The notes beneath the pieces were generated by a model. That model was not told the origin of the DNA and did no database searches. It worked only from the letters and a program-made list of their open reading frames with translations. From NCBI RefSeq assembly GCF_005144885.1, contig NZ_CP039690.1, forward strand, positions 4,043,001 through 4,107,000: a stretch of 64,000 nt of DNA, given 5' to 3'. A program made the position numbers and the translations under genes. This stretch comes from Phreatobacter stygius (lineage in GTDB: Bacteria; Pseudomonadota; Alphaproteobacteria; Rhizobiales; Phreatobacteraceae). This document shows positions 49,617 through 54,535 of this stretch, one piece after another. Each line of letters begins with the position of its first letter. Within the stretch, counting starts at the first letter, position 1.

Positions 49617-49798
49617 GGCTGTTTCGGTCTGGCGAGTTCGGCTCGGCTGCGGGACGTGGCTGGCTTTTACTAGGGCCGGGCTTTGCCGCGCGGTCAACAG
49701 ACGGGGCGGGATGGCAGTGCTGAATAGCGCCTCAAGGCCCTTCCGCTTCACGCCGCGAGCGCCTATCTTCGTGACAGAGCTGCGACGCCCGTCAGGAC

Positions 49799-49943
49799 CA
49801 CAATTCCCCGGGGCCTTATCGATCTCAACGGGAGCTGTCCCTGACCCGGTCCCTGGACTGGGATATATGGCGCCCACCTACTTAGGTAGGTTCCCGGGAT
49901 CGAGCGTTCAACGGCGAAGCGGCTCTACTTGTTCTCTTGGATC
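49799..49943 (+). ncRNA. ssrS: 6S RNA
   Basis: The stretch matches alphaproteobacterial 6S RNA as I remember it. Landmarks are CGGGAGCTGTCCCTGACC, GGTCCCTGGACTGGGATATA, the apical ACCTACTTAGGT hairpin, TTCCCGGGATCGAGCG and CTACTTGTTCTCTTGGATCC at the 3' end. It lies directly upstream of fau, as in many proteobacteria. 6S RNA mimics an open promoter and sequesters the housekeeping RNA polymerase holoenzyme. Ends are approximate by about 10 nt. Confidence 0.88.
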
Positions 49944-52042: not shown

Positions 52043-53128
52043 ATGTCGCACAACACTTTCGGCCACCTGTTCCGCGTCACCACCTTCGGCGAGAGCCACG
52101 GGGTGGCGCTTGGCTGCGTGGTCGATGGCTGCCCGCCGCGGATCCCGATCACGGCGGAGGACATCCAGGCCGATCTCGATCGTCGCCGGCCGGGCCAGTC
52201 GCGCTTCACCACCCAGCGCCGCGAGCCCGACGAGGTCAAGATCCTGTCCGGCGTGATGATCGATGACGACGGTGTCCAGGTGACCACCGGCACGCCGATC
52301 GCGCTGTTGATCGAGAACACCGACCAGCGCTCGAAGGACTATTCCGAGATCAAGGACAAGTTCCGTCCGGGTCATGCCGATTTCACCTATGAAATGAAAT
52401 ACGGCATCCGCGACTATCGCGGCGGCGGTCGCTCGTCGGCCCGCGAAACCGCGGCGCGGGTTGCCGCCGGCGCCATTGCGCGCAAGATCGTGCCCGGCCT
52501 CGACGTCCGTGGCGCGCTGGTCCAGATGGGGCCGCATGCCATCGACCGGGACAAGTGGGACTGGGACGAGATCGGCAACAACCCGTTCTTCTGCCCGGAC
52601 AAGGACAAGGCGGCCTTTTACGAGAGCTATCTCGACGGCATCCGCAAATCCGGTTCGTCGATCGGCGCCGTGCTGGAAATCGTCGCCGAAGGCGTGCCGG
52701 CAGGCCTGGGCGCGCCGATCTATGCCAAGCTCGATGCCGAGATCGCCGCGGCCCTGATGGGCATCAATGCCGTGAAGGGCGTCGAGATCGGCGCGGGTTT
52801 CGCCGCCGCCTCGCTCTCGGGTGAAGAAAACGCCGACGAGATGCGCATGGGCAATGACGGCAAGCCGCTGTTCCTCGCCAACAATGCCGGCGGCATCCTG
52901 GGCGGCATTTCGACCGGCCAGCCGATCGTCGCGCGCTTCGCGGTCAAGCCGACCTCGTCGATCCTCAATCCCCGCCTGACCATCGACAAACATGGCGCCG
53001 AGGCCGACATCCTGACCAAGGGCCGCCATGACCCCTGTGTCGGCATTCGCGCCGTGCCGGTCGGCGAGGCGATGGTTGCCTGCGTCATCGCCGACCACTA
53101 TCTGCGCCATCGCGGCCAGAACGGGTGA
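52043..53128 (+). CDS. aroC: Chorismate synthase
   Basis: The 361-residue enzyme makes chorismate from 5-enolpyruvylshikimate-3-phosphate and needs reduced FMN. Family signatures are [38 protein letters not shown] and FAVKPTSSI. It is followed 81 bp later by ribB, whose pathway makes the flavin that aroC needs; the pairing is common in this class. Confidence 0.97.
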
Positions 53129-53167
53129 TATTCACCCTCGCTGAAATGCAGGTCTGGTATTTTTGAT

Positions 53168-53184
53168 TTTCAGTTTGACTGAAA
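53168..53184. promoter_or_regulatory. Perfect palindrome upstream of HTH-ribB
   Basis: TTTCAGT-TTG-ACTGAAA is a perfect 7+7 inverted repeat, AT-rich, 25 bp before the ribB start in an 81-bp gap. It has the form of a dimeric helix-turn-helix operator. Binding by the helix-turn-helix domain of the RibB protein itself is a hypothesis. Confidence 0.5.
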
Positions 53185-53209
53185 GTCCTGCGACGCCCAT
53201 CTTCTCCTC

Positions 53210-54535
53210 ATGAAGCTCGACATCTGGCTCACCCGTGCCGGCATCACCCGGCTTGCTTTCGCGAAAAGCCTCGGCGTCTCGCCGGGCACGATCACCGCGC
53301 TGTGCAATGGCGAGGCGCCCTGGATGTCGCGCGACACGGCCGAGCGCATTGCCGGACTGACCGGCGGCGCCGTCACCCCCAATGATTTCATTGGCCTGAA
53401 AGGGCCACGCGATGAGGAAAGAGCCATGCTGGAAGCCACCGAGCGCGTGAAGGCGGCCCTTGATGCCTTCGCCAAGGGCCAGATCGTCGTGGTCACCGAT
53501 GACGACGACCGCGAGAACGAAGGCGACCTGATCGTCGCGGCGTCGCTCTGCACGCCGGAGCAGATGGCCTTCATCGTCCGCCACACCTCGGGCATCGTCT
53601 GCACGCCCTTGTCGGTCGAGGAGGCACGCCGTCTCCGGCTCGATCCGATGGTGTCGTCGAACGACAGCCCGCACGGCACCGCTTTCACCGTGTCGGTCGA
53701 CTATCGTCACGGCACCACAACCGGCATTTCCGCCGACGACCGCACCGCAACGGTGCGCGGGCTGGCCAATCCCAATGCCGGCGCGGTCGATTTCGTCCGC
53801 CCCGGCCACATCTTCCCGCTGATCGCCAAGGATGGCGGAGTGCTGATGCGCTCCGGCCATACCGAGGCGGCGGTGGATCTCTGCAAGCTCGCCGGCTTGC
53901 CGCCGGTCGGCGTCATCTGTGAACTGGTCAATGACGACGGCACGGTCACCCGCGGACCGCAGGTGGCGGCCTTCGCCGAGAAGCACGGCCTCGTGACCGT
54001 CTCGGTCGCCGACCTGATCAAATACCGCCAGGCGCGCGACCGGCTGGTCGAGCGGGCCGGCGAATTCCCGATCGAGACGCCTTACGGGCCGGCGCGGGGC
54101 ATCGCCTATCGCACGCCTTACGACAAGGTCGAGCACCTCGCCATCGTGTTCGGCGAGGTCGAGGACAATGGTCCGACGCTGGTCCGCCTGCACCGCGAGA
54201 CCGTGCTGCGCGACGTCTTCGGCAAGAACCCGGTGATCGATTGCGCGGTGAAGCGGCTTGCCGAAAAAGGCGGCGTGCTGATCTACCTGCGCGACGGTAC
54301 GGCCGGCGTGCCCAGTCAGTCGCTGGCGGCTTCCGCGCCGCAGCCCGATGTTCACGAGAGCCACGGCTCGGCCAAGATGCGCGACGAACAGTGGCGCGAG
54401 ATCGGTCTCGGCGCCCAGATCCTGCGCGACCTCGGGGTCCACACGATCTCGCTGCTCGCCTTCAGGAACCGTCACTATGTCGGTCTCGGCGGCTTCGGCA
54501 TCGAGATCAAGTCGACCGAGATGCTCGACGCCTGA
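53210..54535 (+). CDS. ribB: 3,4-dihydroxy-2-butanone 4-phosphate synthase with N-terminal HTH and degenerate RibA domain
   Basis: The 441-residue protein has three parts. Residues 1-62 look like a Cro/C1-type helix-turn-helix (RLAFAKSLGVSPGTITALCN). Residues 73-280 or so are the RibB domain, with DDDDRENEGDLIVAA and MRSGHTEAAVDL, which makes the riboflavin precursor from ribulose 5-phosphate. The rest resembles GTP cyclohydrolase II but lacks the zinc ligands: where the active enzyme has CLTGD and RCDC, this has TVLRD and VIDC. It is thus probably inactive as RibA. An internal ATG (53426) behind GAGGAAAG could give a 369-residue form without the helix-turn-helix. Confidence 0.92.
   Translation: MKLDIWLTRAGITRLAFAKSLGVSPGTITALCNGEAPWMSRDTAERIAGLTGGAVTPNDFIGLKGPRDEERAMLEATERVKAALDAFAKGQIVVVTDDDDRENEGDLIVAASLCTPEQMAFIVRHTSGIVCTPLSVEEARRLRLDPMVSSNDSPHGTAFTVSVDYRHGTTTGISADDRTATVRGLANPNAGAVDFVRPGHIFPLIAKDGGVLMRSGHTEAAVDLCKLAGLPPVGVICELVNDDGTVTRGPQVAAFAEKHGLVTVSVADLIKYRQARDRLVERAGEFPIETPYGPARGIAYRTPYDKVEHLAIVFGEVEDNGPTLVRLHRETVLRDVFGKNPVIDCAVKRLAEKGGVLIYLRDGTAGVPSQSLAASAPQPDVHESHGSAKMRDEQWREIGLGAQILRDLGVHTISLLAFRNRHYVGLGGFGIEIKSTEMLDA

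Follow-up and report, generated by a model that had tools for sequence, protein, structure and literature searches.

A riboflavin enzyme that probably represses its own gene: helix-turn-helix RibBX proteins and a co-conserved promoter palindrome in bacteria related to rhizobia

In this study, we examined a ribBX gene with an added helix-turn-helix (HTH) domain in a 64,000-nucleotide stretch of Phreatobacter stygius DNA (the whole stretch is called the window below), together with its counterparts across the order. Judged by comparison between genomes, the HTH-RibBX protein is very probably bifunctional, an enzyme that doubles as an autorepressor with a single target and from whose gene a second, repressor-less isoform would also be made. 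An autoregulated enzyme-repressor had been suggested by an earlier reading of the letters and their open reading frames (the sequence-only reading); the idea now has comparative support, as an operator-like site in the gene's own promoter is conserved with the HTH. The features concerned, in window coordinates, are these:

52043..53128, + strand: aroC-like (chorismate synthase) ORF, the upstream neighbour, identified by eye from the ORF list
53130..53146, no strand assigned: putative distal, degenerate operator copy ATTCACC-CTC-GCTGAAA, 38 bp upstream of the main operator
53168..53184, no strand assigned: candidate main operator TTTCAGT-TTG-ACTGAAA, 25 nt before the ATG at 53210
53175..53180, + strand: predicted -35 element TTGACT, inside the operator, from a promoter logo of 60 loci
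53198..53203, + strand: predicted -10 element CATCTT (logo TAnnnT), 17 bp after the -35
53210..53212, + strand: first start codon and predicted transcription start, with no Shine-Dalgarno (SD) sequence; C stands at -1 in 54 of 60 loci
53210..54535, + strand: HTH-RibBX ORF, 441 aa
53210..53389, + strand: Cro/CI-type HTH domain, aa 1-60 (Pfam, profile, AlphaFold, Foldseek)
53282..53305, + strand: predicted recognition helix, aa 25-32, PGTITALC; helix placed from models, residue 30 covarying with operator base 3
53414..53421, + strand: putative internal SD sequence GAGGAAAG, duplex -6.3 kcal/mol
53426..53428, + strand: internal start codon ATG (codon 73), which would give an HTH-less RibBX
53453..54025, + strand: RibB domain, residues 82-272 (profile matches)
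54053..54514, + strand: X domain, a degenerate RibA (GTP cyclohydrolase II), residues 282-435 (profiles, alignment)

The architecture of this ORF is the known RibBX make-up plus an N-terminal HTH. Pfam Cro/CI HTH models match aa 2-51; with the N-terminal fragment HTH_31 reaches E = 2.2e-5, and its score in the window's protein lies below the gathering cut-off (25.1 vs 27 bits). HTH_26 matches 12 of 13 family members scanned (best E 1.3e-6), and a 7-row HTH profile recovers proteins of Cro and HigA type with solved structures (E down to 5e-4). The AlphaFold model of the HTH is helical, with a block pLDDT of 92-96 over the first 30 residues and a model mean of 85.6; the full-length model, with a mediocre mean pLDDT of 67.7, was used for the HTH helices only. 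Foldseek gave no match at E 0.001: HppE was the top match, cyanase was also listed, and Cro-like matches lay above E 0.05. The HTH region appears to be coding, as its reading frame is open and its protein sequence conserved at 74 loci from 28 genera, with a conserved promoter directed at its ATG. In several relatives, ribBX likewise lies just downstream of an aroC-like end (by eye).

The RibB part scores above its equivalog cut-off (TIGR00506, 247.5 vs 177.45 bits) and looks active from its residues; it is the only RibB copy found in the genome, a single 7.35-Mb contig. The RibA part is below its cut-off (TIGR00505, 35.7 vs 205.85 bits), and the X domain lacks the Cys residues found at the corresponding positions of RibBA 4i14 in the alignment, which we take to be zinc ligands. 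Both the fusion of a Cro-like HTH to a riboflavin enzyme and the degeneracy of the RibA domain are thus as first read. A separate RibA is encoded elsewhere (C1:1083457, 169.2 bits) and carries the CLTGDLFGSLKCDCG Cys stretch. The genome's third PF00925 protein (locus L038, G000 C1:1914676) is GTP cyclohydrolase II-like, has 417 aa, lies beside a second long ORF and by eye resembles the uracil-catabolism type.

The perfect TTTCAGT-N3-ACTGAAA palindrome that had been noted 25 bp upstream of the gene is indeed present (53168-53184). It is the sole match in the window at up to 3 mismatches, where shuffled windows hold 0.29 on average and at least one in 26 of 100 shuffles; genome-wide, no other site lies within 1 mismatch, and three more have 2 mismatches. 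By itself the palindrome is modestly unlikely, and the case for it rests on conservation. All 12 genomes of the genus examined, its own included, have HTH-RibBX and the palindrome at -42, exact in 10 and with 1-2 mismatches in 2. Across a 90-bp alignment of the genus, 15 of the 17 columns in the site are invariant, against 18 of 73 outside it.

Beyond the genus, HTH-RibB fusions were found in at least 74 of 397 sampled genomes of the order, spanning at least 28 genera and 9 families. The number first scored was 75, one of which (L086) proved to be HTH-less; 73 of the 74 were analysed, the search pattern having missed the RibB motif of L060. A search for the palindrome in relatives, proposed with the original reading, came out in its favour: TTTCAGT-N3-ACTGAAA at up to 3 mismatches precedes 59 of the 60 HTH-ribBX loci with the window's HTH type and 0 of 47 HTH-less orthologues, whose best score is 4 mismatches; raw counts such as these overstate independence, given the kinship among loci. 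The motif is exact in 26 of the 59. This HTH type spans 20 genera, in 19 of which every locus has the motif; the one miss, L090, carries ATTTAGT-TGT-GCTAAAT. The spacer varies among loci and is fixed as TTG in the window's genus, where TTG belongs to the -35. Mononucleotide shuffles reached 3 mismatches or fewer in 58 of 14,600 cases. The 47 controls are HTH-less loci whose RibB motif and start were recognised by the search pattern, with starts chosen by rule as the nearest Met; loci without the RibB motif (for example L031, L110, L111, L130, L134 and L135) were left out. Their upstream regions are often aroC-like coding sequence, so that their base make-up differs from that of the HTH-bearing set.

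Kinship was taken into account by placing 84 RibBX proteins, 41 of them with the HTH, on a quick maximum-likelihood tree. The HTH requires 10 changes on this tree, at least 7 of them on starred branches, and HTH and motif agree in 82 of 84 rows; the exceptions are L015, which has a palindrome of its own, and L026, an HTH-less row that the looser label counts as motif-like. Over 7 independent contrasts, the mean number in which the motif follows the HTH is 5.9, and 0.0 show the reverse (p between 0.031 and 0.063, median 0.031), with motif labels that were set after the data had been seen. Under a 'perfect palindrome' label the figure is 4.1 of 7 and not significant (median p 0.125), perfect 7-3-7 palindromes being present in only 23 of the 41 HTH-bearing rows. 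Two close relatives form a natural before-and-after pair for HTH and operator: Microvirga aerophila (L157) has neither HTH nor motif, its RibBX beginning shortly after the aroC-like end, and Microvirga sp. Mcv34 (L151) has both.

Where the predicted recognition helix differs, the site differs too. Among the 12 loci with a GR(V/I)SQ helix, 10, from 4 of 6 genera, carry TATTAGC-N3-GCTAATA at up to 2 mismatches, and each of the remaining two has a different perfect 7-3-7 palindrome, at about that position in L091 and further upstream, at -57, in L094. Microvirga sp. Mcv34 combines the helix TPGAITQM with TTTTAGT-TTT-ACTAAAA, and family f94 of the same class combines SPAAVTQL with TTTAAGT-TTG-ACTTAAA. 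Imperfect sites only were found in the Hyphomicrobiales MAG locus L155 (helix SPGAVTLI, ATTGAGC-GAG-ACTCAAG) and in L154. With base 3 left free in the search, Ala30 pairs with C at that base in 108 of 108 half-sites (54 loci). For Gln30 the covariation is not strict: its 8 loci give C 7, T 7, A 1 and G 1, a tally that scores L017 at a spurious site (the real one has T) and omits Gln30 loci with a generic-site score below 7/8, nine of them of the TATTAGC family. Residue 30 is not the whole code, since Gln30 loci in g99 and g129 retain C at base 3. Overall, operator and recognition helix appear to change together. At L015 (G039, family f29) a different HTH is fused to RibBX, and a perfect GTTGCCA-AAA-TGGCAAC lies over the -35 position; a different HTH with its own palindrome suggests a second, independent fusion and possibly an independent invention of the same circuit, as seen in this one genome. 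The one other genome of that family compared matches from aa 85 on and so is without the HTH.

A shared promoter places the site. In the logo of 60 loci, T, T and G stand at -35 to -33 in 53, 50 and 45 loci, T, A and T at -12, -11 and -7 in 34, 45 and 43, and C at -1 in 54; the -10 in the window's genome matches the logo weakly. This promoter spacing puts +1 on the first base of the start codon, from which we infer that the ribBX mRNA is leaderless and begins on the first ATG. The first ATG has no SD sequence (duplex +0.7 kcal/mol), and an SD of -5 kcal/mol or better, which 20% of random positions have, precedes the first start in only 5 of 73 loci. The GTG start of L080 is awkward for a leaderless message. 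Such a message would not be odd in itself, because about 6% of Sinorhizobium meliloti genes are reported as leaderless (PMC5756330).

The operator of the window's genus runs from -42 to -26 and covers the -35, and the TATTAGC-type operator overlaps the -10. Of the 60 loci, 34 have their best match at a distal position (-58 to -78) and 26 at a proximal one that falls on the -35 (-39 to -42), the proximal signal being partly the -35 itself. Many loci have a second copy; in the window's genus the best second site is at -80 in 12 of 12 genomes, with 2 to 6 mismatches. At up to 5 mismatches per site, the spacing between the two sites is 27-29 bp for 30 loci and 38-39 bp for another 11, nine of which belong to the window's genus. 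These spacing classes lie about one helical turn apart, which suggests that a second, often weaker copy supports paired binding on one face of the DNA.

The number of sites per genome points to a single target. At up to 1 mismatch, 14 of 16 HTH-bearing genomes have a match, in 14 of 14 one lies at ribBX, and 10 have no other; 17 genomes were searched, the last being G072, absent from the HTH-bearing listing. The two HTH-bearing genomes lacking such a site, G377 and G114, have 2-mismatch sites instead. For the TATTAGC type there is exactly one site, at ribBX, in 9 of 9 genomes. A wider regulon was considered and rejected: the site at up to 1 mismatch is unique in the window's own genome, and the three inspected of five extra sites, from four other genomes, lie by eye in a phage-like capsid region, at an rsmB-like gene and at an ilvC-like gene, none of them at rib genes. 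Twenty control genomes, 18 without the HTH and 2 with the TATTAGC type, contain no exact CAG site, and 1-mismatch matches occur in 7 of 20, against 10 of 20 for the reversed pattern. As a side observation, genome G327 has an exact extra operator copy (L145, C8:567212) in a region that is phage capsid-like by eye, besides its copy at ribBX and a third exact copy at C14:760407.

How these parts may work together can be outlined as follows. RibB is a homodimer; this fits a two-fold site, as a dimer offers two HTH heads. A full-length dimer would place its two heads on the 17-bp palindrome over the -35 of its own promoter, with a second operator copy 27-29 or 38-39 bp away allowing paired binding. 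When enzyme is plentiful, the bound dimer would block RNA polymerase, and the enzyme level would feed back on its own synthesis. Substrate occupancy or the X domain, which was first read as a possible sensor, might modulate the binding. The message would begin on the first ATG, and the internal SD sequence and the start at codon 73 would yield HTH-less RibBX from the same message. A bolder version, to which we give somewhat less than an even chance, sees one gene with two forms, a leaderless repressor-enzyme and an SD-initiated plain enzyme, as a self-titrating homeostat gained and lost repeatedly in Alphaproteobacteria. In such a homeostat, mixing of the two forms would give dimers with a single HTH or none, whose hold on the palindrome would be poor; the threshold for repression would be set by how much initiation is leaderless and how much SD-led, with no need for a dedicated ligand, and operator and recognition helix would change in step.

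The sequence-only reading had also claimed a better ribosome site at the internal 53426 start than at the first ATG (-6.3 vs +0.7 kcal/mol), and this feature proved to be conserved. An in-frame start led by an SD of -5 kcal/mol or better is found at the HTH/RibB junction in 68 of 73 loci and 23 of 27 genera, compared with a mean of 31 and a maximum of 43 in 300 synonymous shuffles, or 40 and 54 in 300 shuffles with start codons fixed; in the window's genus an ATG with such an SD is there in 12 of 12 genomes. As their junction codon, 46 loci use ATG, 26 use GTG and 1 uses TTG. We infer selection for a second, HTH-less enzyme. The main rival, which we regard as unlikely though deserving real weight, is that the internal start is an unused relic, the codon at which RibBX began until it acquired the HTH. 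It sits about where HTH-less RibBX proteins begin, five loci have no good signal (L040, L045, L085, L087 and L097), and counting ATG alone leaves 45 of 73, all of which would suit a relic. Against this, the SD is kept well beyond synonymous expectation although the linkers vary in length and sequence, and a relic should decay over such divergence unless HTH gains were recent and frequent.

Rivals to autorepression itself concern the site and what binds it. That palindrome and HTH are a chance pairing in this one genome is hardly credible: 7-3-7 palindromes are not rare in single upstream regions (among the 47 HTH-less ones the best score is 7/7 in 1 and 6/7 in 12), but the motif recurs in 19 of the 20 genera with this kind of HTH and has a changed counterpart in a further family of the class. 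The palindrome might belong to a separate regulator, with the HTH of RibBX serving as a structural or oligomerisation module, and the fold matches to HppE and cyanase lend this some colour. To our knowledge, HTH-like heads also occur in enzymes without a known repressor role. We nevertheless consider it very improbable, as the presence of the palindrome tracks that of the HTH over the tree, its sequence changes with the recognition helix, and it usually occurs once per genome, at ribBX. An activating HTH, or one that activates at low and represses at high concentration, has somewhat better prospects and is still improbable. On this reading, a strong distal site near -61 from the predicted start would help polymerase and the proximal site would block it. 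Classical activators bind at positions centred near -61, where many loci have their strong distal site, and the 34-to-26 excess of distal over proximal best sites agrees with this. The strong site nevertheless lies on the -35 in the window's genus and over the -10 in the TATTAGC type, positions typical of repressors, which argues for repression.

The lack of an FMN riboswitch, claimed at the outset, was borne out as far as searched: RF00050 has 0 matches within the window and 0 in the genome, where 150 of 239 first-look candidates were scored by a search that was positive in 7 of 14 control genomes. The window does contain a 6S RNA (RF00013, 84.5 bits) at 49774-49929 on the + strand; it looks ordinary and is flanked by two ORFs identified by eye, an FAD-oxidase-like one on the opposite strand and one that resembles 5-formyl-THF cyclo-ligase.

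The RibBX family has reportedly been described in J Bacteriol in 2013 (Gralnick group) and in 2021 by Nouwen in Bradyrhizobium ORS285. Its members join RibB to a degenerate RibA without zinc and ring-opening residues, and HTH-RibBX has the same make-up. According to PMC10012899, the X domain of Shewanella lacks cyclohydrolase activity and nonetheless regulates the activity of RibB through a mechanism that is unknown; the paper makes no mention of an HTH, so that relative to it HTH, operator and internal start are additions here. Among the open-access matches listed, titles and abstract starts held no description of HTH-RibB or its operator, nor any riboflavin-control mechanism in kin of the window organism, and texts with both 'butanone 4-phosphate synthase' and 'helix-turn-helix' showed unrelated uses in the portions available. 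What we offer is a specific proposed mechanism of riboflavin control for at least 28 genera of bacteria related to rhizobia, in which two isoforms may arise from one gene through the pairing of a leaderless start with a Shine-Dalgarno start. It comes with comparative material, namely sister lineages with and without the HTH and several operator types on one fold.

A close likeness is RbkR, an archaeal HTH-riboflavin kinase listed as 'bifunctional as gene regulator and enzyme' in a table of PMC8305020, which also notes a homologue without the N-terminal HTH; here, too, a flavin-synthesis enzyme doubles as regulator. RbkR differs in being another enzyme from another domain of life. It is said to control a multi-gene regulon. 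BirA, PutA and NadR are metabolic enzymes that repress pathway genes, control other operons and respond to known ligands, whereas the site found for HTH-RibBX is in the enzyme's own promoter. BzdR shares an XRE-type HTH N-terminal to an enzyme domain, and in PMC3602430 the synthetic chimera Q1 is a bifunctional regulator and proposed evolutionary intermediate. In its natural form BzdR is no longer enzymatically active and serves as a sensor of benzoyl-CoA, whereas the RibB of HTH-RibBX looks intact and no other copy was found; HTH-RibBX may be a natural, still enzyme-like counterpart of the synthetic enzyme-to-regulator intermediate. RibBX and an archaeal bifunctional flavin enzyme-regulator are known; judged by the open-access matches listed, HTH-RibB with its own candidate operator and putative internal start appears to be new.
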